From positions 1 to 43,576 of the IMG/VR virus record IMGVR_UViG_3300046028_002635: 43,576 nucleotides of DNA. One strand, written 5' to 3'. Source of the DNA: a virus. Positions within the stretch are counted from its first letter, which is position 1; each line of letters opens with the position of its first letter. Below are positions 1,234 through 28,094 of this stretch, piece after piece. A program made the translations under genes and the position numbers. The notes beneath the pieces were generated by a model. It did not search any database and was not told where the DNA came from. It was given only the letters and a program-made list of their open reading frames with translations.

Positions 1234-1268
1234 AGACTATCCCCCAGGGGTCGCGATACGTACACCCT
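1234..1268 (-). promoter_or_regulatory. Late promoter copy 5, upstream of the tail fibre gene
   Basis: On the minus strand the box AGGGTGTACGTATCGC (1268-1253) is followed 13 bases later by TAGTCT (1239-1234). The box differs from the consensus by one base. The likely transcription start is about 20 bases before the fibre ATG, leaving room for the AGGAG ribosome site. It should serve the tail fibre and lysis genes. Confidence 0.7.
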
Positions 1269-1277
1269 TAATGCGAC

Positions 1278-4200
1278 TCAATCTTTCGGTGGTGGCCCAA
1301 GCAGAATGGCAGTGGCTGGTGCGCCTCCATCGGCCCACGCCTGCCATCCTCGATAGCTTCTGATGATCTGCGTGACTGGTACACCAGACACCGACCCAAA
1401 AAGTCGAACTGAAGCCAGCACCAATGCCTCGTCTGCCTCTCCTTGCGCAACTTGCTTTCCAGTCTTCCCGAGATCTGAAATAACACGACCCACTGGTGGC
1501 CCGGCATAGTCAAAGCCAGACAGCAATCCACTGGTTTCACGCAACCCCATGACCGTTCCAAGAAGGTAACCGGCCTGCCACTTCAGCAATTTCATCGCCC
1601 ACTTTTCTGCATCATCATCATCGCCGCCGCCACGCAACATCTCAATCAAAAGAGCAGGTGCCAAAGCGGGGATAACAATCAGCAGCATCATGTCGGCCAT
1701 CCAGCCGGCGACTGCGAGTGGGTTCTTGAAGTCTGTGCGTGCGGTCGATTCAGTTGTCAGGTTGTAGGTCACATTGAAATAGCTGTAGAACATGCCCAGC
1801 ATTGGATGCTTGCGCTGGAACTCAGCAAGATCCTTGGTTTGCCCACCGCCCTGGGAGTCCAGCACACCCTGGTCGGCCATCGCCACGGCAGTCGACTCAT
1901 CAAACCCACCAGCCAGCGCCTTCTCATACGACCCGATCCAGGTTGGAATGTCGGCCACCATCTGCATTTTCTGCATCAAGATGAACAGGCTGGCGTCATA
2001 AATCTGTCGGGCTTTGGAGTGGCCTTCGCTCACCCGGCCTTTGATTTCATGCAACTCTCGGTTGAAGGTCTTGCCACGCAGGCGCATGAAGTCAGACTTG
2101 CCGTTGATCCACGACAGCGAACTCTCAAAACGGGCCGCGTCACCACCCCATCGCGCCATCCCGCGCAGCACCGGCTTGACACCGATGCGGGCCATCGACT
2201 GGGTCAGGCCAAACGGCTGCATCAATGCAGTAGTCAGCGATAGTCCCATGGTCGAGCGCGAGATGTTGGCGCGCAGATGCAGCAGCGCCTGGTCGATCCT
2301 GGTCTGCGGCACCATGTCAGCAGTAGCAATGGACTGCAGCGAATCCTTCAATGTCCGCACCACCGCTGTGCCGTAGTGGTCGCGGATAGCGGTATTGATG
2401 GGCTTGGCATCCAGCAAGCGGTTGGCGTCAATCAGCCATTCGTGCCAGGACAAGTCATGCACCACCTGGTTGACATGCTGGGTGATCACATCCAGCGTCT
2501 TCTTGACCGGGCGACGGACCTCTTCCACCCGCGCCTTGGTATGGCCACGGCGTGTGGTAGCACGGGTAAACGCACCCTGCATCATGTCTTTTGCAATGGC
2601 CGCAGCATCGTGCTTTTCGGCGCGGTCATCCCGGTTGGCATCGTACTTGACCGGGTAGTAGCCGCCACTTAGCTTCACCACCTCGCCACCTGGGAGCGTG
2701 ATACTGAATGGGTTGGCGGCCACCTTTTCTGGCGCCACGCCGGTCACGCGCAGTTGCTTGGCCTCAATCTGGGGCCAGTAACCGTCGATGAAGGTCCAGG
2801 CATTCTGCACAAACGCCCACTCTTCCCGTGTAAGGTGCTTCAGGATGGCGCCGACTTGCGCCTCACTCCAGTTGTCACCCAGCATCACGCGCGACCGGTT
2901 TGTCTCGTTGCCCCAGTTGAGTGCTACCGACAGGCGACCGCCGCGCGTCAGACTGCTCTTGATCTCTGGGATGTACAACAGGTCGCCATGCGTCCCGCCC
3001 TTGAGATCCAGGATGGGCGCATAAATTTCAGCCAGTCGTACCGTGGCCTGCTCCACCATCACCGCCTCTTGCGTGCCGGCCTCGTTCATGGTGCGCCCGA
3101 GAATGCGCCACAGCGGGCCGCCATCCTTGCCGCCATCCATTTGACGCAGCAGGCTTGCCAGCTTGCGGTGGCCTGCGGCAAACCCCTCCAGCCACGGCAT
3201 GGCGCCAGTAGGCTCTTCCAGTTGGACTGTGCGCTCTGGTCCACCGTTGTCACGGATACTGGCGCCGGCCTCGGCCACGATCAGTGCAAACTCGCGCTGG
3301 TCCTTCGCGGTCAGCAGTTTGTGCTTGAGTCGGCCCAGGTGTTCGATCTGCTTGATGGTGTCCTTCAGCCCACGGATCTCCTCGACCGTCATGTCCTTGA
3401 AGTGCTTGCGGTTGGCCTCCTGCAAAAGATCTGCAGGGATGTCAGGCTCAAGTCCCTGGGCTGCCTGGGACTCAACCCACTCCAGCAGGCTCTTGCGTTT
3501 ATCAATGGCATCCAGGCTGGTTGCCTTGCGCAAGTCGAATCGCTCCAGAAGCGCATGGATCTGTTCACGATACTCGCGGTCCAGCGATTTATTGGCGCCA
3601 TCAAACTTCTTGAAGTATTCAACGGCCGCAGCTACCTCGTCCTGGGCCGCGTAGGCTTCCTTGGTGGCCACCATGTTGATCAACTGGTTGCGCTTGGCTT
3701 CAGCCTGCTTGGTCAGATCCCCCTTGGCCTTGACCGCAGCCTTGGCAGCGCGGGCTTCAGCCGCCGCGTACTGGGTCGGCTTGATGTCGCGCACCTTGAG
3801 CCGGGCAATAAGTTGGCTGGCGTATTCCTTGGCCGCCTGCGCCAGCACATCGACCGTGCTTTTCTGGCCTGGGTTCTTCTCGCGCACGCTCATTGCATGT
3901 TGCAGGGCGCGCAGCTCAGTGGCCACAAACCGGATGCGGGCATCGTTATGCACTGCTGCATCGGCTGCGCGCTCTAGGCCTGCTGGGGTTGCCAGGTCAC
4001 CATGCTCTTCCAGCATGCGCTGGTCGGTCATCTCCTGCACCACCTGCTTGGGATCATCTGCCAGGGCCAGCGCCTTGACCAACTGGTCGCCAGAGCTGAA
4101 GCCAGCAAACAGTTCAGCCACTACATCTGGATGAAGTCCGCCCTCATCGCTGGTCATGTGCAATGCGGATAGCTTGCGCCAGACTGCATCATCCTTGGTC

Positions 4201-7200
4201 CCGTACATGTAGCGCAGATCTTCGGTGCGCAGCTTGCCAGAGCTGAACACATGGGTGTCAGGTACTTCAATCGGTGCATCACCGTAGGCGTTGGCCATGT
4301 CGCGCTTGATCGAGAAACGGTCCACACCACGGCGCTGGTCATCGAACAACTGTTCCAGGTTTTCTGGGTAGTAGTTGCCATGCTCATCGGGTATCAGGTA
4401 GCCCTCTTCGATCAGGCGCTGGCCCATCACATCCATGGATGCCCCACCGGTCTTACGCACCACGGGCGAACCAAAGACGCCAGACTCCAGCTTTTCCTTT
4501 TCGTCAATGCCCCACAGCTTTTTGACTTCGGCGCGGTCCAACCCGCCCAGTTTGGCAATGGCCGTGAACAGGTTATCCACCTCGGGGTTCACGCCCTTGG
4601 TGCTTCCAGCAGGTTTATCACCAACGACCTTGTCGCCCTTGGCAGTCAGGAAGGCCCAAGCCTGGTAAATAGGCTCGGCCATGACCTTGGCGCGCACCTC
4701 GGCGGCGATCTGGATGCGCAGGGCATCGTGCTGCTTTTGCAGCTTCTTGAGCGCGCGGCTGCGGGCGTTGTTCAGCCACTGCATGTCCTTCAGACCTTTG
4801 GCCTGCAGCTCATCGGTGGCATCCATGCTGGCCTGCACACCAATGTCGTGGTAGGCCTGGTACGCCTCCAGATCCATACCACCCTCTTCAGCAGTGGCGA
4901 ACAGTGGCCCCATGTTGCGGGCCGCCTCGGCGGTGGCGATCTCTTCGTTGGTTGCCAGCATTCGATCCATGACTCCGCGCACCTCATCGGACAACTCCAC
5001 CTTGAGCGCGCCTGCGATGTCTGACTTGCCTGCATTGATCGACTTCAGCATGGCCTTGTAGACGTTGACCAGCCAGGAGCGGAAGGTCTGGAACATCTTG
5101 GTCAGCTCCAGGCTTGGACTCTTTCCCTCAAATGCGTAGGCCTCAAAGCCGCGGGCAAATGATTCATGGTGTGGACGCTTCTCTTCCAGGCTCAGGTAGG
5201 CCCAGTGGTCGGCCGCACTCATCTCAGGGGTGGACTTCACGCCCATCCAGTCCAGCACCTTGCCGAAGTCCTCCGCGATGGAGCGCTCACCGTCGCTGAC
5301 CTCTTCACCGGCTGCGATGCGCTGGGTGATGCGTTGCGCCAGGTCGGCCTGGACCTCAAGGAAGAAATGCCCGCCCTCATGGATGAAGGTCGACAAATCC
5401 GCATCCTTCATCATTGAGATGACGCTGGCCTGCTGGGTGATGTCGTTAGCGAAGGCGATCTGGCCGCGTGCCTTTTGGAAAAACAGGTTCCCGAACTCAC
5501 CAATCTTGGCCGCCCGGTCGGCATCGTCGCCTTTTTTGTAGGTGCGGATGTCGGTGACGCCGCGCTTGTTCAGCGCCTCGATCACCTTGGGGTCTACGCC
5601 TTCAGGCACCACGGCGCCCTTGAACTCGGCCAGGTCCACGTCACGCAGGATTTTGGCTTCAAAGTATTCTGTCGGTAGGTTCTTGAGCTTGGTCAGGAAC
5701 TCGGCCACACGGACCTTGGACTCGTCGCTTGCTGCAGCATCACTGCGCTTGTAGTCTTTCAGCGCACGCTCTATGGCTTTGCCAGCACCCATCTTCGGTG
5801 CATCTTCCAGCACCTCGATGGTCTGGTCCAACGACAACCCAAGACTGTCGGATATGGCCACCAGCTCGTTGTCCACTTCGGTCTTGACCTTCTCAAAACC
5901 AGCCTTGTCCATTAGCCGGTCCTTGGCTTTACGGATCTGCTCAATGCTCTTGAACTGGGGCGTGAACTTAGCGCGCAGCGAACCCACGCCATAGTTGAAA
6001 CTCTCGCCGCCGCGCAGCTCAGTCTTCAGGATCTTGATTCCATTCTCAAGCGTGTGCGGGGTGTATTTTCGGTCGCCGTTGTTGTTGAAACCCTTGAATA
6101 TCTTTTCCTTGGCGCCTAGCTCGTAGAACTTTCCACGCACGTAGTCGCTGAACTGCTCGTCCAATGTCCCACGGATTTGTGCCCGCAGCGAGTCGCGGGT
6201 GGCGTACTTGTCAGGCTCGACCTGCGAACCTATCTTTTTCATTTCGTATGCGGGGTTGCGCGCCAACGCCATCAGCATGGATGGGTCGTTCTTCTTGGCA
6301 TCCTCAAAGTCCACCGCGTGCTCTGGCATACCACCCTGGGTGTAGGCGTCGTTTTGCTCGGAAATTACCAGGCGCTGAAACTCAGGGTCGCGCATCAAAG
6401 CCTGGTGGTCGGTGTTGCCGAAGAACTTTTCAAACCCGAACTCGCGCAGGCGCTCGGTACGTTTTGGGTCGAAAGCGGCTTTTACCTTCACATCGGGCGT
6501 AATGCCCTGCTCAGTCAGGAACTGCCACATCACGGAACCGGAATTGGTCAGCTCCGCAGCACCCCGATTCGCCAGCTCGTCCAATTCAATAGCCCCACCG
6601 GTGGCCTGCTCACCTTCGGAGAATTGCGCCTTCAGAACCTTGAGCTTTGCGGGCGTCAGCTCGTAAGTGATTTTTGGATAGCGCGGGCTGTAGATGTCCG
6701 CACCGAACACCTTGGTCGCTGCGTAGCCCTTGGGGTCCACCATTTCGCTGGGGGCCAGCAGGGTGATCTCACCGAAGTTGGTGAGCGGGTGCGCTTTATT
6801 GGTGACCGCCAGCGATGGCACTGCAATGCCGCCCATCTTGACGGCATGCAGCAGGTTTTCTGCTGTGAGGTTGTGCTGGGCGACTAGGTCGGCGGGGTTT
6901 CCCTGGTAGAAAGTTGCAGATCCTGCGGCATTGTTGCCTCCAGTTCCGCGTCCAGTGGCTCCTCCCACCCCGACCGGCGCAAGTAGTTCTCCCGAGTAAC
7001 TGGCAGACCATCTCTGATCAGCCCCAGAAGAATCGGGTCTGTACCAATCCGGGGGCGTAACTCCACCGGCAAGTTCAACAACTTGTTTTCTGGCTGCGTC
7101 GATGTCGGTTTGTTCAGCATGGTAACTTTTCCATATTTTATCGAAACTTTGCTTGAATGTGTCGCTCTTTTTATTGGTGTATTTTGACTTGAACGACTCA

Positions 7201-10200
7201 GAGAACAGGCCGCGTACAGCTTCCCAGGCGATGGACTGCATCTCACGCGCCAGAAGTCCGCGCTCTACTGCTGCGCGGCGATATGCTTCTGCATAGATTG
7301 CGTAACTGCCTGTGATGCCTGTGTTTGAGTCACCACCCGCTGCACCAAAGTTGTCTATAACCTCTTGGGATGTGCCAGACAATGGTAGCAATAAAGCCGC
7401 AGCAACAGCATGGGTGTCGGCCGTGACAGATCCATCTGTGGCATTTGGGGCGTAAATGTTGTTGTAGAAGTTGCGAACTTTATGCTTGCCGCCAAGTGCA
7501 TCGCTGATGTTTTGGAGCGAATTGTCTTTGAGTACAGACACCGCCTTGGCTATTGGGCTGAACCCGTTAGCCCAAGATCCGCGTTTTGGTTTTCCATCAA
7601 GGTTTCGCGCCAAGTCTACGAAGTCACCCTCTGGCGTAACGACATGAAAATCGCGTGGGTTGTATGCCAAATCGTAAGCAGCAATCCAGTACGCCTGCAA
7701 ATCGCTGTCAATCACCCCCGCCAGGGTTTTCCCTGTGATGGCGGCGATGATCTCTGGCGACTTTGAAGCGGCGGTCTTGGCTAGTGCGTCGGACATTTCG
7801 GGCGTCCACGCTGTGTTCTGGTGCTTGTCCCAAACATCAACAATGCGCTCTGCCAGGGTTACGTTCGCAAACCAATCAAGCTGTGGAGACATGACGGCCA
7901 TGACGGCAGAAAGTTGCACATCGGTATAACGATTCTCGTACTGGCCAACCCAACGATCAACGATGTTGCGGGCACCGTCGTACCAGAGCTTGCTGCGCTC
8001 CCGTATGTCCGCAGGGACACTGTCGTGCAGCCAAATCAAGTTGTCCTTCATCTCCTCGATGTACGCCTCCAGCCGCTTGGCTGGATCTTTCATCTTTCTG
8101 GTGCGCAGGCTGATGATATTGTCGAACTTCTCGGCAAACTTCTGAATCAGAACGGGGTTCCGTTTCACTGCTTCAAAGTCAACAACAAGCTGTTCGGCTA
8201 GTGGGTTCTCTGTCCGCTTTGCACCTGTTGGCACCCTGGTGCTGACCGATTGGTGCAGGATATTGGCATCGTTGGGGTCAAAGTTGCCGTTGTTGCCGGT
8301 GGCTGATTTGATCTGGGTGGGGCTAAAAATAATGTAATCGTCGTCCAGCTTCACGCCATCAAAACCCTCGGCTATCAATTGGTCATACGTCTTGCTTTCG
8401 TAATCGCCCCAGCCTGCGAGTTTTTTGGCTGAAAGGTACACAGGCATGACTTCACCCTGACCTGCAGCGCCGACCTCTCCACTATCCACCGCGGCCTTGT
8501 CGGTCGTAAACCAGAACGCGCCGTCCATCGTCTTATTTTGGTCAAATGTAGTAAATGCCTTTTTTGTTGAGTGATACGCCACCGCTGGCGCGCCGTCAGA
8601 GCCCACCACCTGGGAGTCACCGAACCAACTCTTGAACTGTGACGTGTCGGTGATAAGCGCACCCGCTTGGTCGAACTGGTCCATGGTGTTCTTGCCACCA
8701 ACTTCCTTGTTCTCAAACCGCAGCGGATACTTTGCCGCGAAGGCCTCTGGCGTCATGCCTGTGCGGGCGCCCATCACTGCTGCGTGCGTGGAGAACAGGC
8801 TGGAAATGTGTTCGTTGACCTTGGGGTTGAAGCGCCCCATCTCGTTGAGGTTGGCCAGCATCGACGCCTGCACCTTGTCTTTGGACTCCCGGTACGTTGC
8901 GTCCCCAGCCTGCTCACCCATCACCCGCTCGATCTCGGCGTTGACGGCGTCACCCTTCTCCTGCATGTAGACCTTGGCCTCCTCGCGGCTCATGCCGTTG
9001 ACATCGGTGCGGGCGTGGTCTATCAGCACCTGCTGGAAGGTTTGGCCGATACTGTTGACCAGCAGCTCAGACGTTGGGATCACTAGATCCCCGCCCAGCT
9101 GCTCCTGCCCGAGCTGGGCAGCCACACTGGGCAGCACCTGCGCCAGCACGTTCATGTCGATGCCAGCCTCCACCAGTTTGGACGCCTCGATGTGGATATT
9201 GGGCACGCCTTCGTTGACCAGTTCTTGCGCGTAGGTTGTCAGGGTTTCAGGACTGCGCTCCAGCATCTTGCTGGCTTCAATGGTCTTGATCATTTGCCCG
9301 AGGGCATCTGCATTCTTGGCGGCAGCGCTGGCTTTGTACAGGGACTCCTCCACTTTTTGGGCGACTGGATGCAGGCTCTGGATTGCGCCAGCCGCGAAAG
9401 ATCCAGTGAGCAAGCCCATTGCGGCTGCATTGCCAACGCCCTGCCCAATGGGTTTATCCTTTGCGAAGTTTTGCCACATCTGTTCCTGCACAGACTGAGG
9501 CATCTCCTCAAACAAACCCTCAGAGACACCGGACTCCACCAATCGGCGCACAAAACCCTTCTTCATCGCCTCGGCTGACACCGCGTCCATGCCACCCTTG
9601 ACCAGCACTGTGTCGATGTCAGCAATACCCAACTTGGCAGACATCTTGCCGCCGACTACTGAAAACAATGTAGTCCCAACGCCTGACATCACCGCCGCAA
9701 AGTCCTGCTTCAGTGTTAGCAGCCCGTCATCAGTCTCCGACCGGGTTTGTTCTGCGGCCGCACCACCACCCATAACACCCTCGCCAATAGCTGCAGCCAG
9801 CCAGGGCATGACTTTTGGCGCCACGGCCAACAAGCCACGACCCACGGCAGCACCACCAAGCATTTGGCCCAGTGACTCGCCTGTGGCGGTGGCCAAGGTG
9901 CTTGGGTTCTTCAGCGCTATGCCTAGCGTATCGACAAAGCCTTTTGCTTCTTGCAGTTTTGCATTCGCCTCTTGCTGCGCGTCTGAGTAAAACGCACTGG
10001 CAGCCTCCTGCCCAGCCTTGAAGTCAATGCCAATCGCTTGCACGGCCTTTCCTGCATATCCCATGGTGGGTATGTCGGCCAAACCAACCAAGGCCTGCGG
10101 CAACCCTATGGCGCTTTTTGCCGCCACTACACCAACATCACCCACCGTACCAAGTACCGTGCGATCAGATGGCCGCTTGATGGCCGGTGCGTTCTCATCA

Positions 10201-10682
10201 AAAGTTACGCCTTGCATGGCGGTTCTGCGTGCAGAGTCTGCATCGAGCGCAGGGTTGCCCTGCATCTCAGCCTTGACCCGCTCCGCAAAGTCTGCGCTGC
10301 GCATGGTTTGTGCTGAACTGAATTTCGACTCTGCAGGCCTGCGCTGCACGTTGAACAACTCTTTTGCAGCGTTCGCAATAGCCGACAGTGCGCCACTGTC
10401 ATCATGGGCCAACTCCGCAAAATCTCTCTCGCTGTACTTCTTCTGGAGAATTGGCGATGTAGCTGAATTAGCCTCAATTTCTTTAAGTGCAGCAGCTCGT
10501 TTAGATTCTGCTGGCAATGCGCGAACCGCATCGACCGGCGCCCCAAGGTAGGCCGCAATGCGCCTATTACCCGCCTCTTCGTCGGGGTTGCTGTCCAGTG
10601 CTAGGGTTGTAGTTGCACGCGCCTTATCTGACTGCTTTTGTTGTGAAAAACTGTCGAGAATGTCTGTGTAATCAGTTGGCAT
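1278..10682 (-). CDS. Giant internal virion / DNA-injection protein (3134 aa) with ART and zincin domains
   Basis: This single frame takes up about a fifth of the genome. Visible parts: Gly/Ala-rich hydrophobic stretches near residues 270-310 that could enter a membrane; an ADP-ribosyltransferase-like block of the polyvalent-protein type near 675-815 (AYHSTKKAFTTFD to a NDANILHQ end); a helical domain near 830-1130 with SAVMAVMSPQLDW; a zincin-like motif HEGGH at 1768-1772 in the common context ADLSTFIHEGGHFF; long charged helices; and a hydrophobic segment near 2994-3014 followed by an acidic GGGDDDDAE patch. Family knowledge of polyvalent proteins and T7/N4 core proteins suggests it is packed in the capsid and injected with the DNA. 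The gene starts directly after the 598-residue core protein. Which activities are real is inference. Confidence 0.88.
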   Translation of the reverse strand: MPTDYTDILDSFSQQKQSDKARATTTLALDSNPDEEAGNRRIAAYLGAPVDAVRALPAESKRAAALKEIEANSATSPILQKKYSERDFAELAHDDSGALSAIANAAKELFNVQRRPAESKFSSAQTMRSADFAERVKAEMQGNPALDADSARRTAMQGVTFDENAPAIKRPSDRTVLGTVGDVGVVAAKSAIGLPQALVGLADIPTMGYAGKAVQAIGIDFKAGQEAASAFYSDAQQEANAKLQEAKGFVDTLGIALKNPSTLATATGESLGQMLGGAAVGRGLLAVAPKVMPWLAAAIGEGVMGGGAAAEQTRSETDDGLLTLKQDFAAVMSGVGTTLFSVVGGKMSAKLGIADIDTVLVKGGMDAVSAEAMKKGFVRRLVESGVSEGLFEEMPQSVQEQMWQNFAKDKPIGQGVGNAAAMGLLTGSFAAGAIQSLHPVAQKVEESLYKASAAAKNADALGQMIKTIEASKMLERSPETLTTYAQELVNEGVPNIHIEASKLVEAGIDMNVLAQVLPSVAAQLGQEQLGGDLVIPTSELLVNSIGQTFQQVLIDHARTDVNGMSREEAKVYMQEKGDAVNAEIERVMGEQAGDATYRESKDKVQASMLANLNEMGRFNPKVNEHISSLFSTHAAVMGARTGMTPEAFAAKYPLRFENKEVGGKNTMDQFDQAGALITDTSQFKSWFGDSQVVGSDGAPAVAYHSTKKAFTTFDQNKTMDGAFWFTTDKAAVDSGEVGAAGQGEVMPVYLSAKKLAGWGDYESKTYDQLIAEGFDGVKLDDDYIIFSPTQIKSATGNNGNFDPNDANILHQSVSTRVPTGAKRTENPLAEQLVVDFEAVKRNPVLIQKFAEKFDNIISLRTRKMKDPAKRLEAYIEEMKDNLIWLHDSVPADIRERSKLWYDGARNIVDRWVGQYENRYTDVQLSAVMAVMSPQLDWFANVTLAERIVDVWDKHQNTAWTPEMSDALAKTAASKSPEIIAAITGKTLAGVIDSDLQAYWIAAYDLAYNPRDFHVVTPEGDFVDLARNLDGKPKRGSWANGFSPIAKAVSVLKDNSLQNISDALGGKHKVRNFYNNIYAPNATDGSVTADTHAVAAALLLPLSGTSQEVIDNFGAAGGDSNTGITGSYAIYAEAYRRAAVERGLLAREMQSIAWEAVRGLFSESFKSKYTNKKSDTFKQSFDKIWKSYHAEQTDIDAARKQVVELAGGVTPPDWYRPDSSGADQRWSASYSGELLAPVGVGGATGRGTGGNNAAGSATFYQGNPADLVAQHNLTAENLLHAVKMGGIAVPSLAVTNKAHPLTNFGEITLLAPSEMVDPKGYAATKVFGADIYSPRYPKITYELTPAKLKVLKAQFSEGEQATGGAIELDELANRGAAELTNSGSVMWQFLTEQGITPDVKVKAAFDPKRTERLREFGFEKFFGNTDHQALMRDPEFQRLVISEQNDAYTQGGMPEHAVDFEDAKKNDPSMLMALARNPAYEMKKIGSQVEPDKYATRDSLRAQIRGTLDEQFSDYVRGKFYELGAKEKIFKGFNNNGDRKYTPHTLENGIKILKTELRGGESFNYGVGSLRAKFTPQFKSIEQIRKAKDRLMDKAGFEKVKTEVDNELVAISDSLGLSLDQTIEVLEDAPKMGAGKAIERALKDYKRSDAAASDESKVRVAEFLTKLKNLPTEYFEAKILRDVDLAEFKGAVVPEGVDPKVIEALNKRGVTDIRTYKKGDDADRAAKIGEFGNLFFQKARGQIAFANDITQQASVISMMKDADLSTFIHEGGHFFLEVQADLAQRITQRIAAGEEVSDGERSIAEDFGKVLDWMGVKSTPEMSAADHWAYLSLEEKRPHHESFARGFEAYAFEGKSPSLELTKMFQTFRSWLVNVYKAMLKSINAGKSDIAGALKVELSDEVRGVMDRMLATNEEIATAEAARNMGPLFATAEEGGMDLEAYQAYHDIGVQASMDATDELQAKGLKDMQWLNNARSRALKKLQKQHDALRIQIAAEVRAKVMAEPIYQAWAFLTAKGDKVVGDKPAGSTKGVNPEVDNLFTAIAKLGGLDRAEVKKLWGIDEKEKLESGVFGSPVVRKTGGASMDVMGQRLIEEGYLIPDEHGNYYPENLEQLFDDQRRGVDRFSIKRDMANAYGDAPIEVPDTHVFSSGKLRTEDLRYMYGTKDDAVWRKLSALHMTSDEGGLHPDVVAELFAGFSSGDQLVKALALADDPKQVVQEMTDQRMLEEHGDLATPAGLERAADAAVHNDARIRFVATELRALQHAMSVREKNPGQKSTVDVLAQAAKEYASQLIARLKVRDIKPTQYAAAEARAAKAAVKAKGDLTKQAEAKRNQLINMVATKEAYAAQDEVAAAVEYFKKFDGANKSLDREYREQIHALLERFDLRKATSLDAIDKRKSLLEWVESQAAQGLEPDIPADLLQEANRKHFKDMTVEEIRGLKDTIKQIEHLGRLKHKLLTAKDQREFALIVAEAGASIRDNGGPERTVQLEEPTGAMPWLEGFAAGHRKLASLLRQMDGGKDGGPLWRILGRTMNEAGTQEAVMVEQATVRLAEIYAPILDLKGGTHGDLLYIPEIKSSLTRGGRLSVALNWGNETNRSRVMLGDNWSEAQVGAILKHLTREEWAFVQNAWTFIDGYWPQIEAKQLRVTGVAPEKVAANPFSITLPGGEVVKLSGGYYPVKYDANRDDRAEKHDAAAIAKDMMQGAFTRATTRRGHTKARVEEVRRPVKKTLDVITQHVNQVVHDLSWHEWLIDANRLLDAKPINTAIRDHYGTAVVRTLKDSLQSIATADMVPQTRIDQALLHLRANISRSTMGLSLTTALMQPFGLTQSMARIGVKPVLRGMARWGGDAARFESSLSWINGKSDFMRLRGKTFNRELHEIKGRVSEGHSKARQIYDASLFILMQKMQMVADIPTWIGSYEKALAGGFDESTAVAMADQGVLDSQGGGQTKDLAEFQRKHPMLGMFYSYFNVTYNLTTESTARTDFKNPLAVAGWMADMMLLIVIPALAPALLIEMLRGGGDDDDAEKWAMKLLKWQAGYLLGTVMGLRETSGLLSGFDYAGPPVGRVISDLGKTGKQVAQGEADEALVLASVRLFGSVSGVPVTQIIRSYRGWQAWADGGAPATAILLGPPPKD

Positions 10683-12479: not shown

Positions 12480-12482
12480 GCG

Positions 12483-13094
12483 TTAACCCCAGTTACTGGT
12501 GAGTGGTGTGCCTGAATAGGTGGTACTGTCGCCAGCGCTTTTTGATACACCAGTGGGCGTGGCTGCGGCGCCCGTGCTGAATAGTCCGTCCTTCTTCATG
12601 CCAAGGTAGGAGGAACCCATCTTGCCGCCCTCGGACAACAAACTGCTGAATGCAGCCGATCCTGGGCTGATGCTGGATGCGCTGGCGCGCTTCATCAAGG
12701 CATCGTTCTGCTGGCTGGTCGCTTGCGTGCGATGGCCCCAGGCTGACTTGATGGCATTGGCCTGGATGGTGTTGGCGTCGGTCTCCCCCATCACATCGGT
12801 GCTGGTCAGGATCTCGGCCGCACTTCCAACGCCCAAGTCCACCCCGTTGGCGGCCAGACTGGCGCGCTGGCGACCTTTGAGTTGGGCAGTTCTCAGGCGT
12901 GAACTCTGGTACTCACGCTCACCGCGCAGCAGCTCACCCTGGGCACTCTGCTCGGCCATGCGGGCGTTGATGTCTGCGATTCCCGCCTGGAAGCCAAGGG
13001 ATGATTTTTGTGACTCAGCAGCGTAGTAGGAGCCAACCACACTGGATGCCGCCCCAATACCCTGCATGGCCATGGATGCACTAGCAAAGGACAT
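12483..13094 (-). CDS. Internal virion protein, T7 gp14-like (203 aa)
   Basis: A small Ala/Ser/Gly-rich protein with an N-terminal hydrophobic segment (MQGIGAASSVVGSYYAAES) followed by Gln-rich helices (residues about 30-120). This is the pattern of the small virion core protein of podoviruses, which enters the outer membrane during ejection. The ATG at 13094 has AAAGG upstream and lies about 20 bases after the start site predicted for the late promoter at 13122-13156. It is the first gene of the ejection-protein block. Confidence 0.72.
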   Translation of the reverse strand: MSFASASMAMQGIGAASSVVGSYYAAESQKSSLGFQAGIADINARMAEQSAQGELLRGEREYQSSRLRTAQLKGRQRASLAANGVDLGVGSAAEILTSTDVMGETDANTIQANAIKSAWGHRTQATSQQNDALMKRASASSISPGSAAFSSLLSEGGKMGSSYLGMKKDGLFSTGAAATPTGVSKSAGDSTTYSGTPLTSNWG

Positions 13095-13121: not shown

Positions 13122-13156
13122 AAGTTAGCGCCTGACACCCGCGATGCGTACACCCT
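13122..13156 (-). promoter_or_regulatory. Late promoter copy 4, upstream of the ejection proteins
   Basis: Minus-strand box AGGGTGTACGCATCGC (13156-13141) matches the consensus exactly. It is followed after 13 bases by TAACTT (13127-13122), the most divergent -10 of the five but still TAnnnT. The first base of the box is the last base of the stop codon of the tail-tube B gene. Confidence 0.68.
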
Positions 13157-16088: not shown

Positions 16089-16097
16089 GGTCTACCT

Positions 16098-17587: not shown

Positions 17588-17600
17588 TTTTGTTTACCTT

Positions 17601-18242
17601 TTAAGGGTTCATGTTGGGATACATACGCTGGGCAGCCGTTTCGGTCGTGGCACCTTTGTTGCCATTCACGAAGCTTCCGTCTTCGCTGATTGCCTTGCCT
17701 GCCCGGTAAAACGCCCTGATGATTTCAGGATGATTTCCCAGACCAGACTCTTTGAGCAGCGTGCGCAATTCGGGAGTGCCAAACTGGGTGAGCGCTTTGT
17801 CAGCGATGGCCACGTTCTCAGTGAGCTTTTGCCCACCAAATTCCGCGTCAGTCGTTGACTCTTCAGCCCACTTCGCTTTGGCAGCCTGCATGGCATCGGC
17901 TTGACGGGCTTGCATCGCAGGCGCCATCTTGTCGATCATCTTTTGCGCGGCGTCTTGGGTCAGGTTCAATTCCTTGGCCAGTTCTGAAAATGATGCGATC
18001 CCGGCCTCATCCATTGCGGCATCTTCGGGGGCTTTCAATTCATACTTTTCGGGTGCGCCCGTAGGCTCAACCTTGGCTTCGGGCTTGGCACCGTCGAGCA
18101 ATTGCCCTTCAGTGGTCTGGCCTTCAGTTGCCTGCTGCGTTTGACCATCTACCGGCACAACAGTAGTGCTGGCGGTGGTCGTAGTCGATGCTTGGCCTTC
18201 AGTGGTATTTGCGGCTTCAGTCATCAGCGTTGTTTCTGTCAT
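17601..18242 (-). CDS. Scaffolding protein (213 aa)
   Basis: A strongly hydrophilic protein directly before the major capsid gene. It has a Thr/Ala/Gln-rich disordered N-terminal third, helical segments (SFSELAKELNLTQDAAQKMI, MQAAKAKWAEES) and a C-terminal segment TLLKESGLGNHPEIIRAFYR, a pattern typical of podovirus scaffolds. It should bind the inner face of the procapsid and then leave. The ATG at 18242 overlaps the Bbp19-like gene by 26 bases. An in-frame ATG at 18224 is possible and neither has a strong ribosome site. Confidence 0.85.
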   Translation of the reverse strand: MTETTLMTEAANTTEGQASTTTTASTTVVPVDGQTQQATEGQTTEGQLLDGAKPEAKVEPTGAPEKYELKAPEDAAMDEAGIASFSELAKELNLTQDAAQKMIDKMAPAMQARQADAMQAAKAKWAEESTTDAEFGGQKLTENVAIADKALTQFGTPELRTLLKESGLGNHPEIIRAFYRAGKAISEDGSFVNGNKGATTETAAQRMYPNMNP

Positions 18243-18546
18243 TTACGTTTTCTTTCACCAGGGTGGTGTACAGCTCTGGGCACAGCGTGTGGATCTTTGC
18301 GAGTGTGCGAAGCCCCTCATTTCGGTTACCTTCCGTGAATGCCATTTGCATCGCGTTGGTATTGAATGAAAGGCGAAACACACCAGCCCGGTCCAGTTGG
18401 CGCCAAATGATTCGACGCCCCCGCTTGTTACCCATCAGCCACTTGAAATCCGCATCGTCGTTGTTGCGCTCAATCAGCTCCTTGGCTGTTTTGTCAGCCT
18501 TGGACTTGACTTGCGATGCAACGTCGAGCGGGTCGTATGAACTCAT
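18217..18546 (-). CDS. Bbp19-like structural protein (109 aa)
   Basis: The core DFKWLMGNKRGRRIIWRQL, AGVFRLSF and NEGLRTLAKI is the signature of the Bbp19 family from phage BPP-1, found in many podoviruses beside the scaffold gene. Its exact role in the virion is not known to me. The ATG at 18546 lies only about 6 bases after the -10 element of a late promoter, so its message may lack a leader. It heads the capsid assembly block. Confidence 0.8.
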   Translation of the reverse strand: MSSYDPLDVASQVKSKADKTAKELIERNNDDADFKWLMGNKRGRRIIWRQLDRAGVFRLSFNTNAMQMAFTEGNRNEGLRTLAKIHTLCPELYTTLVKENVNDRNNADD

Positions 18547-18552
18547 GGGTTG

Positions 18553-18587
18553 AATCTATCTGCCGGGTCGAGCGATGCGTACACCCT
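18553..18587 (-). promoter_or_regulatory. Late promoter copy 3, upstream of the capsid block
   Basis: Minus-strand box AGGGTGTACGCATCGC (18587-18572, exact consensus) followed after 13 bases by TAGATT (18558-18553). The longer segment GCAGATAGATT around the -10 also occurs in copy 2. The ATG of the Bbp19-like gene follows after 6 bases. Confidence 0.72.
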
Positions 18588-19146
18588 AGCGTCGGCGCCT
18601 GCGCAGCAGAACAACAAAGTCGGTGGCATTGCTTGCTGCACCTGCTTGCGTTATCTGCACAGCGACACCATCCAGCTCAATAACCATGGATTGCGTGTGA
18701 TTCGATGTCTGCGCTACTGCCGAAGAAATGCCATCCAGCGTGGCCGCAATACTCTGCCCCCTCCCGCGGGTCTGCACCACCGCGACCCCAACATCACCAA
18801 GCGTGAGAGCCAAGCTCTGCGGGTGCCGTGCTGCCTGGCTGACAGAAGCGGTCAGGTCGGCCAGTATTGCGACTATGGCCTGGCTGGTGCCGCCTGCCTT
18901 GCTTTGGCTGATAGTGGCCGTGACATCGGAGAGAGTCGTGGAGAGAATCTGCGGGTGCCGTGCTGCCTGGGTTGCACTGGCCGCTACGCCATCAAGCGTG
19001 GCCGAGAGCGTTACCGTTATCGAGGCGGGTCCACCACCCGAAGCAGTGTTTACGATCTCGGTATCGAACCAAGCCGCAGGCTGCAGTTCCGCACCGAACC
19101 ATCCGTCTGGGCGCAGCTCTCCATCGAACCAACCCAGTAGAGCCAT
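18586..19146 (-). CDS. Repeat-containing structural protein (186 aa)
   Basis: Two repeat systems are visible. Residues about 5-30 hold three short repeats around a Trp-Phe pair (GWFDGELRPD, GWFGAELQPA, AWFDTEI). Residues about 42-175 hold six repeats of 21-25 residues with the form (T/S)-L-x-D-V/G-x-A-x-(I/V/A)-x-Q, several ending in ARHPQ. Such repeats suggest a beta-solenoid or a trimeric stalk, but that is inference. The protein ends in five arginines. It is the last gene of the structural island and its stop codon overlaps the late promoter box. Confidence 0.75.
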   Translation of the reverse strand: MALLGWFDGELRPDGWFGAELQPAAWFDTEIVNTASGGGPASITVTLSATLDGVAASATQAARHPQILSTTLSDVTATISQSKAGGTSQAIVAILADLTASVSQAARHPQSLALTLGDVGVAVVQTRGRGQSIAATLDGISSAVAQTSNHTQSMVIELDGVAVQITQAGAASNATDFVVLLRRRRR

Positions 19147-19149
19147 AAA

Positions 19150-20511: not shown

Positions 20512-20512
20512 T

Positions 20513-20884: not shown

Positions 20885-20887
20885 GGG

Positions 20888-21364: not shown

Positions 21365-21367
21365 GGC

Positions 21368-21715: not shown

Positions 21716-21727
21716 ACATTCCTTTGG

Positions 21728-22290: not shown

Positions 22291-22412
22291 TTGCCATCCT
22301 TGTGTGACGGGCAGTTATCGCAACGCCCAGTGTTTGCCATTGCCATCAGTACCCCGCAGACCCCGCAAAGGAGGCCCACGGTGTAGGCTAGGAAGTGGGT
22401 TAGGTATGTCAT
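22287..22412 (-). CDS. Membrane miniprotein with CxxC (41 aa)
   Basis: Translated from ATG 22412 to TGA 22287, it overlaps the upstream stop and the downstream start by 4 bases each, which is strong support. Residues 7-26 are hydrophobic (one membrane segment). A short tail after it contains CDNC. It could anchor in the inner membrane with the CxxC outside or inside. Function unknown. Confidence 0.6.
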   Translation of the reverse strand: MTYLTHFLAYTVGLLCGVCGVLMAMANTGRCDNCPSHKDGK

Positions 22413-23647: not shown

Positions 23648-23648
23648 G

Positions 23649-23897
23649 CTAGTACACAGCCCCGATTGAGGATGCTGTTGTACCTGTTGCATTCACCCTG
23701 ATTCCACCGTGCGGAAAGAATCCATTGGGAACACTCACAAAAACAAATGTTGACCCATCCACAAAAGTGACACTGATGTCCCCTGCAACACCGACCCACA
23801 GCGCCCGAAATGGAACTGGCTGAACGACGGTATTACTCGGAACAACGGCAACTGTGACTTCGGCGGTGTTAGGGTTGGCAGTTTGAAGTGATGGCAT
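23649..23897 (-). CDS. Small beta protein behind the portal (82 aa)
   Basis: Pattern FRALWVGVAGDISVTFVDGS, then VPNGFFPHGGIRVNATGTTA: a small beta-barrel type often found in phage structural modules and resembling spike-base proteins. It follows the portal gene by 9 bases and ends 1 base before the LamG protein start. Likely a surface protein of the virion. Confidence 0.7.
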   Translation of the reverse strand: MPSLQTANPNTAEVTVAVVPSNTVVQPVPFRALWVGVAGDISVTFVDGSTFVFVSVPNGFFPHGGIRVNATGTTASSIGAVY

Positions 23898-23906
23898 GGT
23901 GGTCCT

Positions 23907-25580
23907 TTAGGTGTATCCGGTGAATGCGCTGGTGGCGTCGGTGAGTGCGTTCTGCCCACTGGTATCTGCTGCTGCCATGTCGCGTGTCGCACTGGCTTGC
24001 TGTACTTTTTCAGCGCTCTGCATTTGGCGGGCTTGCACCTTGGCACGCGCAGTGCGAATCTCAAGAACCTTGGCGTCGGGCACGATCAATGTCGGGTCAA
24101 TGCCAAGCATGTCGCCGTACTGGTCCACCCACTGGTCGGCGTCGAGCTTGTCCAGCACCTCTGGCTTGAACTGGGCGACTTGTCCCAGGCTTCCCACAAA
24201 GCGGTCGACGCTGTTGGTGGCCACCGAGCGCTGGGCTTGGGCCAGGGCGGACACGAACTCCACATTGATGACCACACCCTTGAGCGACTCGGGCAATGGC
24301 GGGATCTGGCCCTGCTCTTCCATGGCGGCGTAGGTCAACTCGATCAGCGGGTCCAGGATCTCGTTTTGCAGGCGCTCGACCACGGGGCCCAGCATCAGCA
24401 TCTTCTCTTCATGGCGCTCGGCCACCTCGGTCGCGGTGATGCCACTGCGCTGGTCGTTGGCCATCATCAGGAACAGGTCGGCATAGAACACCGTGCGGAT
24501 GCGTTGGCGCACATCCTGGATGTCGTTGAGCAGGTGCGACAGGTCCAGGTTGACATCGAACGCGGTGCGCAGCCCGCCATGGGGCGTGGAGGCATCCACG
24601 AAGGTGACGCCACCAGGCAGCGTATCGACTGGCCGGTTGGACAAGGATGTTGGCGCCTGCAATGGTGGGTTGGTCTTGTAGTCAATCCCTTGTGCCTTGC
24701 GCAGCTGCTCATGCTGGAGCTGCTTCACATCCCCTAGCCCTTCCATGCCAGGGCTGTTGCCGTAGATGTCGCCACCCGACACCGCCCAGCGCGGGCACAG
24801 TGCGGGGAAGCGCTTGAAGCCTGACTCGCGCAGGAAGCCATGGTCCTTGGAGCCCATCTCCATGTAGATGGACTTGAACGGCATGTTCTTGTTGTCCCGC
24901 TTGGACAGATCCCGGTCGGAGCGCGGCTCAATGCAATGCAGCACCGTCACCCACTGGTCCAGCGTGCCGCGGTCGAACAGGCTTTGCACGGTCGGGCTGA
25001 CTTTGTCGTGGCCAAACTCCTTGACCATCTGGCCCACAGTCATCTGGAACTCACGGTACAGCGTGTCGACCTTGCCTTGGTGGTCGGTTGCAATGGCGTA
25101 CTCACCCACCGTCAGCACATGGTGGTGGATGGTGGCATCCATGTCAGGCAGGATGATGGTGGCCGCCGTGCCAAAGGCGCCCAGCTCCTCATACGAAGAG
25201 TGCAACGCCCGGTAGGTGTTGGAGCGGTTGAACACCATCTGCATCAGGCGCGTGACCTCGGCCAGCCACACCTTCACATCGTCAGCCTCGTTGAGCTGCG
25301 GGTTGGTGGTGGTCAAACGGAACCAGGGCCGGGCCGGGCTGGTCATGTTGGACATCATCCCGGCCGCCAGGATGCGCAGCGCACCCGTTCCGGTGCTGTC
25401 ATAAATGGTGTTGTGCCGGCGCTCACCCCGGTTGCGGTCTTCCAGGAAGAAGCGCCCCGAGCGTGGCAGCAGGTTGTCGCTGATCTCTTTCCAGTGCGGC
25501 ACCCAGCTGGCGCGCTCCTGCTTGAGCTGGCCCCAACGGGTCAGCAGTCGCTCACGCGGTGTTTGAACTTTAGCGCCCAT
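23907..25580 (-). CDS. Portal / head-to-tail connector protein (557 aa)
   Basis: The N terminus (RLLTRWGQLKQERASWVPHW, DNLLPRSGRF) and FDSTGTGALRILAAGMMS-like segment (here YDSTGTGALRILAAGMMSNM) identify the head-to-tail connector family of T7/epsilon15-like phages, usually 500-560 residues. The ring of 12 subunits forms the DNA channel and binds the terminase. The C-terminal 40 residues are Ala/Gln-rich, as is common for the barrel region. Its ATG overlaps the stop of the upstream 110-residue gene. Confidence 0.92.
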   Translation of the reverse strand: MGAKVQTPRERLLTRWGQLKQERASWVPHWKEISDNLLPRSGRFFLEDRNRGERRHNTIYDSTGTGALRILAAGMMSNMTSPARPWFRLTTTNPQLNEADDVKVWLAEVTRLMQMVFNRSNTYRALHSSYEELGAFGTAATIILPDMDATIHHHVLTVGEYAIATDHQGKVDTLYREFQMTVGQMVKEFGHDKVSPTVQSLFDRGTLDQWVTVLHCIEPRSDRDLSKRDNKNMPFKSIYMEMGSKDHGFLRESGFKRFPALCPRWAVSGGDIYGNSPGMEGLGDVKQLQHEQLRKAQGIDYKTNPPLQAPTSLSNRPVDTLPGGVTFVDASTPHGGLRTAFDVNLDLSHLLNDIQDVRQRIRTVFYADLFLMMANDQRSGITATEVAERHEEKMLMLGPVVERLQNEILDPLIELTYAAMEEQGQIPPLPESLKGVVINVEFVSALAQAQRSVATNSVDRFVGSLGQVAQFKPEVLDKLDADQWVDQYGDMLGIDPTLIVPDAKVLEIRTARAKVQARQMQSAEKVQQASATRDMAAADTSGQNALTDATSAFTGYT

Positions 25581-25912
25581 CAGCTACCACCCAGCAATGT
25601 GTTCTTGCCAAGCGTCAACGACTTGGAGTCGATGCCAGAGGGTCCAGTCAGCATGGTGCCGCTGATACCACCTTTGGCAGCCATGGCGTTGTCAGACAAC
25701 AAGGCCTGCATGTTGGGGGCTTTTTGGTTGGCGGCGTTGTTGGCTTGATCTGCCAAGCCAGCCTGCTTTTGTGCTGCCTTGGTTGCCTGCTCCTGCGCAC
25801 TCTTTTGGCGGTCGGCCGCGAAGCCAGCCTCATTGGAGCTATTGATGGCCACAGCAGCAGATGTCCCCGCTCCAATAGCCATCCATGTTGCGGCGGTGAA
25901 TCCGAAACTCAT
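25580..25912 (-). CDS. Small Ala-rich protein before the portal (110 aa)
   Basis: Starts with an amphipathic, Ala-rich stretch (FTAATWMAIGAGTSAAVAI), then a Gln/Ala-rich helix (QEQATKAAQKQAGLADQANN) and a Gly/Ser/Thr-rich end. It resembles small virion core proteins or a portal-associated factor. It overlaps the cupin-like gene and the portal gene by a few bases, so translation is coupled. Exact role unknown. Confidence 0.65.
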   Translation of the reverse strand: MSFGFTAATWMAIGAGTSAAVAINSSNEAGFAADRQKSAQEQATKAAQKQAGLADQANNAANQKAPNMQALLSDNAMAAKGGISGTMLTGPSGIDSKSLTLGKNTLLGGS

Positions 25913-26379
25913 GCGATCTCCTTCAATTGTTGCTTGCTGCTGGAGATCCGCTCATATTCAGCGCGGTCATTGGTGACAAGCTCAAGCTCGGCCTCTTCGA
26001 CCGTAGTGGCTTTGCAGGCGTGAAAGGTGGTCCACACCATGTCCTCCAGCACCAGGCCGACACGCTTGGTGCCAGCGTGCTGGATGAACGTCTGCGGCGC
26101 CACGATGTCATGCTCACCATCTTCAGTCAGGACGCGAACCCGACCGCTGTGCATCACAGAGATCGAGTCTTCCAAATGGATCATTCCGGTCACTATGGTG
26201 CCCGCAGGGACAGTGAACTCGCGGGCATACATGCCATTGCAGAACCAGTGGCGCAGTGGCAGCTCGACCTGGACTTGCTGCAGGATCAAAGCCTCCAGCG
26301 CCATGATCCGGTCATGGAACGTGCCCTGCACATCAGGCAGCAGCGAGTGCAGGCTTGGGATTACAAGGGCGTCGGTCAT
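25909..26379 (-). CDS. Cupin-like protein between terminase and portal (156 aa)
   Basis: The ATG at 26379 lies about 7 bases after the -10 of a late promoter; the frame extends further but would overlap the promoter. Residues about 50-120 look like a single cupin/cyclic-nucleotide-binding barrel: YAREFTVPAGTIVTGMIH, VMHSGRVRVLTEDG, IVAPQTFIQHAGTKRVG. Phages of this group often carry such a protein at this place; its task is unknown. It could bind a small ligand or be structural. Confidence 0.7.
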   Translation of the reverse strand: MTDALVIPSLHSLLPDVQGTFHDRIMALEALILQQVQVELPLRHWFCNGMYAREFTVPAGTIVTGMIHLEDSISVMHSGRVRVLTEDGEHDIVAPQTFIQHAGTKRVGLVLEDMVWTTFHACKATTVEEAELELVTNDRAEYERISSSKQQLKEIA

Positions 26380-26386
26380 GGCCTGC

Positions 26387-26421
26387 AATCTATCTGCGGG
26401 CCATGGCGATGCGTACACCCT
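26387..26421 (-). promoter_or_regulatory. Late promoter copy 2, downstream of the terminase
   Basis: Minus-strand box AGGGTGTACGCATCGC (26421-26406, exact consensus), 13 bases, then TAGATT (26392-26387). The first base of the box is the last base of the terminase stop codon. It should serve the cupin-like protein, portal and structural island. Confidence 0.72.
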
Positions 26422-27743
26422 CACCTCACGGCATAGGGGTCATAACTGGCGCGCCTCGGCGCATATTGCTGGTCGACTCGCTTGGCAACAGGCTGGGCAA
26501 ACGTCAGGGCCAAGCCATCAGCCATGTCTGGAGATCCACCATCGGGCAGCCGCTTCTTGATGTCATCCTTGCTCTCCAGCTTGAGCCGGTTTGCCGCATC
26601 AAAGCTGTAGGTGGGGGTGGCCAACTCCAACTTCAGGCTGTTCTCATTGGGAATACAACCTCCCGCCTTGACCCACTCAGCCATCTCGTACCACATCTCG
26701 GTGCGCTTGTTGACGTAGCGCGGGTCAATCGCCTTGCCCCCAAAATTCACCTCAATCACATCGTGCCCAAGCTGGCGCAGTCGGTCGATCACCCCAGATC
26801 CAGCGCCAGCATCAATGAACACTGCATCCGGTTTGTGTTCCATGATCTCAGCCGCCACCCGGCCGGCCAGGTCCATGTTGTCGATGCCGCGGTAGACCTT
26901 GGGCTTGAACGCTACCAACCCCTGGCGCATGAAGATGACGCTTCGGTCATTACCAAATCTGGCTGGGTCGACCCCCAGGATCTTGGCTGCATAGTCCATA
27001 GTGCCGGGCAGCATCACCCGGTGCGCAGCTGCTTCAGCGTCCGTCAGACTTAGGAGCTGGTCATCCCCCGCGGCACTGAAGTCGCACAAGAACTCACGGG
27101 CAAAGGCAGTCTCAGCCATCACCCGGCGCAATCGCTCCACCTCACCCCGGTCCAAAGCATCGGTGTCATAGACGGTGTACCGGGCACTGACCCAGTCAGG
27201 CTCTGACTGCGCCATGTAGTACAGGGAACTAAACAGGTTGATGCCCTTGGGAGTACCAATGAACCAAGCCCACCCCAGGCGGTCGGACAGGGCGGGCTGG
27301 ATCACATCGTCCCAAACATCGGGCTTGATCTGGGCCACCTCATCAATCACTACCCCATCCAGGCGCACACCGCGCATGGCGTCAGGGTTGTCAGCCCCGA
27401 ACACCCGGATCACCGCCCCGTTGTGCGGGAAGCGCACCAACATGTCAGCCTCAGAGATCTCGATGTGTCCGTATGGCACCAATGGCGCCACCATCTGCTT
27501 TAGCCTGGACCATGCGATGGCCTTGGCTTGCTTCAGGTAGGGCGCAACATAGAAGTACAGCGGCAGGTCCAACCGGTTCTTCAAGGCCGCGTCCAGCAGC
27601 TTCTTCAGCGCGATCTCAGTCTTGCCCGCCCGACGGTGCAGGGCCAGCACCACAAAGCGCTTGCCAGCCGCCTTGGCTGCGCACTCCCGCTGCCAGTCCC
27701 GCATAGGGTAGCCAAAGCGCACCGCACCATTAATTGGGATCAT
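26421..27743 (-). CDS. terL: Terminase large subunit (440 aa)
   Basis: Packaging motor and nuclease. Walker A-like HRRAGKTE at residues 36-43, Walker B VVIDE at 131-135, coupling motif IGTPKG near 162-167. In the RNase H-like nuclease domain, acidic residues are seen at D259 (GVDPARFGNDRS), D311 (VFIDAGAGSG) and the DMADG segment 406-410. The length of 440 is usual for compact podovirus terminases. The ATG overlaps the stop of the small subunit (ATGA). It should bind the portal and cut concatemers; the cutting mode cannot be read from the sequence by eye. Confidence 0.93.
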   Translation of the reverse strand: MIPINGAVRFGYPMRDWQRECAAKAAGKRFVVLALHRRAGKTEIALKKLLDAALKNRLDLPLYFYVAPYLKQAKAIAWSRLKQMVAPLVPYGHIEISEADMLVRFPHNGAVIRVFGADNPDAMRGVRLDGVVIDEVAQIKPDVWDDVIQPALSDRLGWAWFIGTPKGINLFSSLYYMAQSEPDWVSARYTVYDTDALDRGEVERLRRVMAETAFAREFLCDFSAAGDDQLLSLTDAEAAAHRVMLPGTMDYAAKILGVDPARFGNDRSVIFMRQGLVAFKPKVYRGIDNMDLAGRVAAEIMEHKPDAVFIDAGAGSGVIDRLRQLGHDVIEVNFGGKAIDPRYVNKRTEMWYEMAEWVKAGGCIPNENSLKLELATPTYSFDAANRLKLESKDDIKKRLPDGGSPDMADGLALTFAQPVAKRVDQQYAPRRASYDPYAVR

Positions 27744-28030
27744 CCGGGGAAGTCCGACACCAGCGTCAGGTTGCCGTTGTTGGTGTTATTGGAGGTGATG
27801 GACGACAGCTTGGGGTGGACGTAGGGCGCGGCCATATTGGCGTAGCTGGCCGCAGCCTTGGAGTCACCCTCCTCTCGAGCAGATAGCATGCACTCCAGTA
27901 GCACCTCCAACGGAGTGACACCAGGGATCTCTGCAATACGCTGATCGACCACCACCTTAATAGCCGCAGCCGCCGCCTTCTCTGCCGTCTTCTTTCGCCC
28001 TGCACCTACCCGCTTACCACCTGCAGCCAT
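27740..28030 (-). CDS. terS: Terminase small subunit-like protein (96 aa)
   Basis: Basic start (MAAGGKRVGAGRKKTAEKAA), then TPLEVLLECMLSAREEGDS and AASYANMAAPYVHPKLSS, a pattern typical of short terminase small-subunit-like proteins directly before terL. The ATG at 28030 has AAGAGG upstream. It is the first gene of the late block, with a late promoter at 28060-28094. It should recognise phage DNA for packaging. Confidence 0.82.
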   Translation of the reverse strand: MAAGGKRVGAGRKKTAEKAAAAAIKVVVDQRIAEIPGVTPLEVLLECMLSAREEGDSKAAASYANMAAPYVHPKLSSITSNNTNNGNLTLVSDFPG

Positions 28031-28059
28031 GATTAACCTCTTGAATTTTTGAATAAACC

Positions 28060-28094
28060 AAACTAATCAAATAATCAAATGATGCGCACACCCA
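28060..28094 (-). promoter_or_regulatory. Late promoter copy 1 (divergent), upstream of the terminase
   Basis: Minus-strand box TGGGTGTGCGCATCAT (28094-28079) matches 12 of 16 bases of the consensus, followed after exactly 13 bases by TAGTTT (28065-28060). It overlaps two tandem copies of TAATCAAA (plus strand, 28064-28079). The leader to the terS ATG is about 25 bases and includes AAGAGG. Confidence 0.6.
28064..28079 (+). repeat. Tandem TAATCAAA pair in the early/late intergenic region
   Basis: Two perfect 8-base copies lie head to tail between the lipoprotein gene and terS, covering the -10 area of the terS promoter. They may be a binding site for a regulator that decides between the two divergent genes, or just AT-rich promoter sequence. 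Confidence 0.45.

Follow-up and report, generated by a model that had tools for sequence, protein, structure and literature searches.

Phage-specific boxes in the place of the −35 element at putative late promoters of BPP-1-like podoviruses, and a small helix-turn-helix protein as their candidate reader

A family of short-tailed phages that includes Bordetella phage BPP-1 very probably switches on its late genes through four to five copies of a short box placed 17 letters before a −10 element, although that the switch is one of activation is an inference. The arrangement is described here for a viral genome of 43,576 nt (IMG/VR record IMGVR_UViG_3300046028_002635; the whole of this stretch is hereafter called the window) and for its relatives. 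Promoter-like architecture, conservation, strand bias, fixed spacing, start-codon distances, linkage to a gene for a small helix-turn-helix (HTH) protein and co-variation between residues of that protein and bases of the box are all directly visible in the DNA.

The window is a circular, temperate genome of podovirus type. As a tail-fibre frame of 473 aa remains open through the contig junction (window positions 1 and 43576), the contig appears circular and complete; no end repeat is present. The fibre/lysis block runs on past this junction. The early leftward genes encode a DnaB-like helicase, NinB and a RecA-dependent nuclease, and the gene for an 85-aa HTH protein (28493–28750, minus strand) comes last. 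The late genes fall into five blocks, namely terS/terL, cupin/portal, Bbp19-like/scaffold/capsid (GP7), gp14-like ejection proteins, and tail fibre followed by lysis, so that the order of the module (HTH, terS, terL, portal, Bbp19, capsid, ejection, fibre, lysis) is that of BPP-1, or Rauchvirus-like. The first late gene, terS (27740–28030, minus strand), gave no match in a Pfam search and adjoins terL as in BPP-1; terL (26421–27743, minus strand) matched Terminase_6N (E=1e-6), and relatives were found for it. The portal block opens with a cupin-like gene (25909–26379, minus strand), for which the ATG at 26379 was chosen over a longer GTG start; Pfam returned no hit, and the cupin label stems from the preliminary description of the window. 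The capsid block opens with a Bbp19-like gene (18217–18546, minus strand; Pfam Phage_Bbp19, E=5e-14), and the ejection block with a gp14-like internal virion protein (12483–13094, minus strand; Pfam T7_gp14, E=7e-7). The latter block also contains a giant late protein of 3134 aa (1278–10682). At 28138–28512, on the opposite strand, a lipoprotein-like gene has been inserted that separates the HTH gene from the terS promoter; it has no Pfam match, is absent at that site in the relatives looked at, and looks like a lysogenic-conversion gene.

The preliminary description had claimed five minus-strand copies of a 16-base box, each followed by 13 bases and TAnnnT and each lying before a late block. 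Positions, strand and gene blocks were confirmed, as was the spacing, which is exact in all five copies. The 16-mer occurs without change at 26406–26421, 18572–18587 and 13141–13156 and with one mismatch at 1253–1268, always on the minus strand. The chance expectation is 0.36 copies, and four copies were reached in none of 100 shuffles. The fifth copy (28079–28094) has four changes over the 16 bases, one of them within a 10-base core. When one mismatch was allowed, the pattern GGTGYRCGYA-N17-TANNNT was found five times on the minus strand of the window, never on the plus strand and never when read backwards. An unbiased search for any 10-mer (at most one mismatch) recurring 17 bp before TAnnnT gave five occurrences in the window, compared with at most three in 300 random sequences matched in dinucleotide composition. 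The part that had to be corrected is the functional core, which is 10 bp long: based on the logo, the conserved element is GGTGTACGCA, which occupies −39 to −30, and the AG and TCGC that flank it are confined to the window phage. The exact 16-mer was considered as the conserved unit and rejected, with 10 matches in 2.9 million viral contigs (approximately the chance level), none of which has TAnnnT at the right spacing, and no occurrence in relatives identified through TerL. It is not recovered elsewhere because the conserved unit is the 10-mer, the sequence of which varies between phages.

We regard it as very likely that all five elements are late promoters, with their starts and their activation inferred. 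Late promoter 1 (28060–28092, minus strand) lies upstream of terS and consists of the box GGTGTGCGCA (28083–28092), 17 bp, and the −10 TAGTTT (28060–28065); relatives carry the element at the same site beside terS. Late promoter 2 (26387–26419, minus strand; box GGTGTACGCA at 26410–26419, −10 TAGATT) follows terL and precedes the cupin/portal block. Its ATG is situated 13 nt past the first base of the −10, a leaderless arrangement, and a 7-bp inverted repeat, CATGGCC/GGCCATG, spans the −10. In late promoter 3 (18553–18585, minus strand; box GGTGTACGCA at 18576–18585, −10 TAGATT), which serves the capsid block, the predicted +1 falls on the first base of the Bbp19-like gene's ATG (18546), and this gene is predicted to be leaderless. 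Leaders of about 21 nt are predicted for late promoter 4, before the ejection-protein block (13122–13154, minus strand; box GGTGTACGCA at 13145–13154, −10 TAACTT), and for late promoter 5, before the tail fibre/lysis block (1234–1266, minus strand; box GGTGTACGTA at 1257–1266, −10 TAGTCT), where the inverted repeat CCTGGGG/CCCCAGG flanks the −10.

Relatives were collected as TerL homologues from viral contigs and genomes, near-complete records were examined, and each genome was searched on its own for 10-mers that recur at a distance of 17 bp before TAnnnT; some partial contigs yield only one site. A box of the same general shape was recovered de novo in every relative with enough sequence, each phage having its own version: GGTGCGCGTA, GGTACGCGTG, CGTACCCTTG, GGTACCCGTA, GGTGCGGATG, GGGACCCATA, TGTGACCGTA and CGTGTCCGTG in near-complete relatives, and GGTGCACATA, GGTATGCATA, RGTACACATA and GGTACGCATG in shorter loci. 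Absence of the motif from relatives with the same gene order, which would have refuted the original proposal, was not observed: the motif is there, in phage-specific versions 17 bp from the −10. Each phage usually has three to five copies, on the late strand and 17 bp before (T/C)AnnnT, located beside terS, right after terL, and before the Bbp19-like, gp14-like and fibre genes. Across 20 genomes, exact boxes numbered 75 on the late strand (69 with a −10), and the other strand had none. The three records that lack the HTH gene (G021, G022 and L099) proved to have no box of comparable shape. The named hosts nearest to the relatives are Betaproteobacteria (Accumulibacter, Dechloromonas, Ramlibacter, Propionivibrio). 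In one marine clade (L081, L084, L086 and L089; G024) terL has the reverse orientation with respect to the boxes, the late module and the HTH gene, which has stayed with the other two. One further record, BK063671, has at 18273–18977 a stretch with 45% identity to the large terminase of the window and is filed as a virus of Methanomicrobiales, an archaeal host.

Within a logo of 79 sites, information is concentrated in the 10-mer and in the −10. The −10 formed part of the search and selection pattern, and its conservation is therefore partly by construction. At 65 of the 79 sites the −35 hexamer shared at most one base with TTGACA, and only a single site showed the TG of an extended −10. Due to this poor −35 match and the near absence of the extended −10, sigma70 alone should use these promoters poorly.

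The distance from −10 to ATG is not uniform and depends on the downstream gene. For the Bbp19-like gene it was 11–13 nt, which places the ATG at +1, at 16 of 19 sites; since the start codon lies at or within 1 nt of the predicted +1, the corresponding mRNAs should be leaderless. Distances of 11–13 nt were also seen at 7 of 17 sites for the two gene groups that follow terL, compared with 29–33 nt for gp14-like genes (14/15) and 30–33 nt for fibre genes (13/13). In BPP-1, the start codons of bbp24 and bbp19 likewise lie at or within 1 nt of the predicted +1. From sequence alone we infer that the late mRNAs starting at window positions 18546 and 26379, and those of BPP-1 bbp24 and bbp19, are leaderless, and that start codons locked to the predicted +1 are what genuine transcription starts would give. 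Inverted repeats with arms of at least 6 bp straddle the −10 at 20 of 68 sites, where 5.3 were expected; those of the window lie at 26373–26408 and 1213–1250, and the one before BPP-1 bbp9 (near 6125–6185) has 13-bp arms. By analogy with T4 gene e, such repeats could possibly mask start signals in read-through RNA. As a general feature, a hairpin hiding the start codon was rejected: the excess is real but the repeats are not universal. The dyad that the window box shows (TGYR|YRCA) did not prove general either, the symmetry of 27 box variants (1.28) being barely higher than that of letter shuffles (1.19, sd 0.05).

The HTH gene is located directly upstream of terS/terL in nearly all loci whose sequence covers that DNA. 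Its products are homeodomain-like and mostly 78–95 aa long. An AlphaFold2 model built with 59 family members predicts a three-helix HTH between two strands, with pLDDT >90 in the HTH. A search of the PDB with this model gave no match at E <0.001, only general resolvase/transposase-type HTH folds, and a structure search of a viral library found the module in many HNH homing endonucleases, with an rmsd of about 1 over about 50 residues for several of them. The BPP-1 orthologue of the window protein is Bbp27, which is recorded as an endonuclease, and further orthologues occur in Caulobacter, Limnohabitans and other phages. The recorded label probably reflects the module common to HNH homing endonucleases; no nuclease domain was found in the HTH proteins (78–85 aa), whose domain matches were of HTH type only. 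Among PHROG entries annotated as "late transcriptional activator", the closest to the window protein scored E=0.05, which is not significant.

Co-variation between protein and box was assessed on 43 non-redundant HTH/box pairs, giving 700 pairs of protein column and box position with APC correction. The two strongest of the 700 joined alignment columns 53 and 58 to box position 6. These columns correspond to residues 58 and 63 in the window protein and Bbp27 alike, in or just after the recognition helix. Column 53 explained 87% of the entropy of box position 6, whereas in a TerL control the best of the top-ranked columns (244 variable) explained 54%; some TerL columns also reached high z-scores through shared ancestry. 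Lys58 was paired with C at position 6 in 18 of 18 cases, and Asp, Ser or Gly58 with G in 15 of 17; the rule in full reads Lys to C, Asp/Ser/Gly to G, and Arg to A. The window phage itself, with D58 and A at position 6, breaks the Asp rule, possibly on account of K63 in place of Arg, as in the relative L042.

The rule was then scored on fresh loci, including loci of the BPP-1 type with a different terminase, limited to HTH proteins <92% identical to any earlier one. The post-terL box was scored with positions 4–6 made uninformative, and many fresh loci were uninformative for lack of a scorable post-terL site. Predictions were right at 18 of 18 loci, 15 of which have the different terminase. Two of the assignments, K to C and D/S/G to G, had been set down before these loci were fetched. 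R to A, which concerns 2 of the 18, had the backing of a single training case and entered the rule only once the fresh data had been given an initial look, and BPP-1, one of the 18, was already known before scoring. In two sister pairs on the TerL tree (L038/L042 and L015/L016) box and residues had switched together. Phylogenetic non-independence limits formal tests: tree-based sign tests point one way but are small, with only six independent pairs for G6 against R63 and a median p of 0.06, and a link between residue 63 and box position 4 failed on the tree. A partial Mantel test of HTH given TerL was significant (r = 0.27) but unspecific, and the recognition helix was not the strongest segment; for this reason we relied on the column-level tests and the fresh loci. 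Given the co-variation, we consider it very probable that the HTH protein at 28493–28750 reads the box, as the preliminary description had suggested; no binding data are available.

A phage late activator that replaces the −35 contact of the host RNA polymerase is very likely the best explanation of these observations. In this model the HTH protein, encoded by the last gene of the early leftward operon, would be made ahead of the late genes, and its recognition helix would bind the 10-bp operator at −39 to −30, which takes the place of a −35 element, residues 58 and 63 setting the base at box position 6. The host-type −10, (T/C)AnnnT, would engage the host housekeeping RNA polymerase at each late promoter, and the bound protein would recruit or stabilise the polymerase at all five promoters together. 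Transcription would begin about 12 nt past the first base of the −10. In the capsid block the start would be the A of the start codon, giving a leaderless mRNA; the fibre and ejection blocks would receive leaders of about 21 nt. As the protein changes in step with the box, a given phage would turn on its own late genes only. What is inferred from sequence alone is that the protein binds, that it activates and does not repress, that the host's housekeeping sigma takes part, and where exactly transcription starts. A host factor as reader is argued against by the fact that a phage protein co-varies with the box between near-identical phages, and the 17-bp spacing together with the position over −35 suggests that the HTH protein acts beside or instead of sigma region 4.

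Alternatively, host RNA polymerase could use the late promoters without help, and the same protein could repress them, with the box as its operator. The phage is temperate, and the co-variation of box and protein indicates reading and not the sign of regulation. We nevertheless consider repression very unlikely, and favour an activator, because −35 and extended −10 elements are both missing from the promoters, so that unaided use is improbable; moreover, the 17-bp spacing to the −10 is fixed in every genome, which is a demand of polymerase contact and not of repression, and CI/Cro-like genes are located elsewhere. There is still less support for a sigma factor as the reader of the boxes, be it one of the phage or an alternative one of the host, with the HTH protein as a bystander, a variant of which (promoters of a phage sigma factor) had been raised in the preliminary description. 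Position and spacing do resemble a −35/−10 pair, and 17 of 61 HTH members give weak matches to Sigma70 region 4. However, no sigma factor or RNA polymerase gene was found among the early ORFs of the window that were scanned, the BPP-1 annotation contains no sigma-like gene, an 85-aa protein is too small to hold sigma region 2, and near-identical phages, presumably sharing a host, differ in boxes that track the phage HTH residues. Hence, we regard this reading as very unlikely. The same grade applies to the possibility that the repeats serve packaging, replication or antitermination instead of transcription initiation. One copy does lie at terS, a common place of pac sites, but four to five copies at block starts in strict orientation, with fixed distances to the −10 and to start codons, speak against it.

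The activator model is closest to the middle promoters of T4, where the MotA box replaces the −35 and acts with AsiA through sigma appropriation (PMC2988021), and the proposed likeness to MotA boxes largely held on sequence evidence, for the whole family including BPP-1. In both systems the −10 is still of host type, but the −35 has given way to a phage-specific box, with a small phage protein as its reader (here inferred). The MotA box has its centre at −30 and lies 12 ± 1 bp from the −10 (PMC2988021), whereas for the box described here the gap to the −10 is 17 bp and the centre falls at about −34.5. Unlike MotA, the reader would be an unrelated, homeodomain-like HTH protein, the genes are late and not middle, and each phage has its own box. 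Neither a MotA homologue nor an AsiA-like partner was detected by Pfam in the HTH protein or the early ORFs scanned, which does not exclude a diverged analogue. Mu C (PMC4461284) and P2 Ogr resemble the present case in that a small phage DNA-binding protein serves several late promoters without a good −35, but there is no significant homology and the box here has no strong dyad. The sites of Mu C and Ogr are dyads. With the HNH homing endonucleases the HTH protein shares the DNA-binding module, but it consists of the module alone.

A bolder reading, which we hold to be less likely than not, is that the recognition module of a homing endonuclease has been domesticated as a small, probably monomeric stand-in for the DNA contact of sigma region 4. 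Seated on the −35 of every late promoter, it would turn the host holoenzyme to the late genes, and its one-residue specificity code would insulate those of co-infecting or resident relatives, a MotA-like switch independent of T4. As of a 2010 review, sigma appropriation was not known outside T4-type phages (PMC2988021). The preliminary description knew of no earlier account of the motif, and none was found in the open literature searched, including a text search for the box sequences; a mention in the 2004 BPP-1 genome paper is not excluded. Natural pairs of near-identical phages with different boxes provide a ready set for following how regulator and promoter specificity change together.

BPP-1 is the model for diversity-generating retroelements and the best-studied member of a large phage group. 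It shares the gene order of the window and has the orthologous HTH gene beside terS, and it carries four exact GGTGCCCGTG boxes on the late strand, at 26294 (terS), 24132 (after terL), 20747 (before bbp19) and 6185 (before bbp9 and the mtd/retroelement cassette). It differs from the window in its terminase and box variant, and its record annotates no late promoters. In three of the four, TAnnnT follows after 17 bp; in the terS copy AAAACT takes its place. As this last promoter falls within the recorded 5′ end of bbp26 (terS; L168 26255–26318), the true start of bbp26 is probably the downstream ATG at about 26255. The predicted promoter at 6185 precedes bbp9, mtd, avd, the template repeat and brt, and thus, if the model is true, native expression of the retroelement in BPP-1 would depend on Bbp27, which would give this recorded endonuclease a testable function.

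Among other named phages, DC33 and zth2-2 have four GGTACCCGTA boxes each and, like BPP-1, carry the predicted HTH residue alongside them. Caulobacter phage Jess A (L170) has GGTGCGCATG boxes at 2268, 22486 and 38560 with deviating −10 elements (TAAAAA, TAAATA and GATACA), perhaps suited to the Caulobacter polymerase. Limnohabitans phage DC33 (L169, PQ492659) is filed under Inoviridae, the filamentous phages, yet displays a podovirus-type late module and a gene of >9 kb; this filing is probably wrong.
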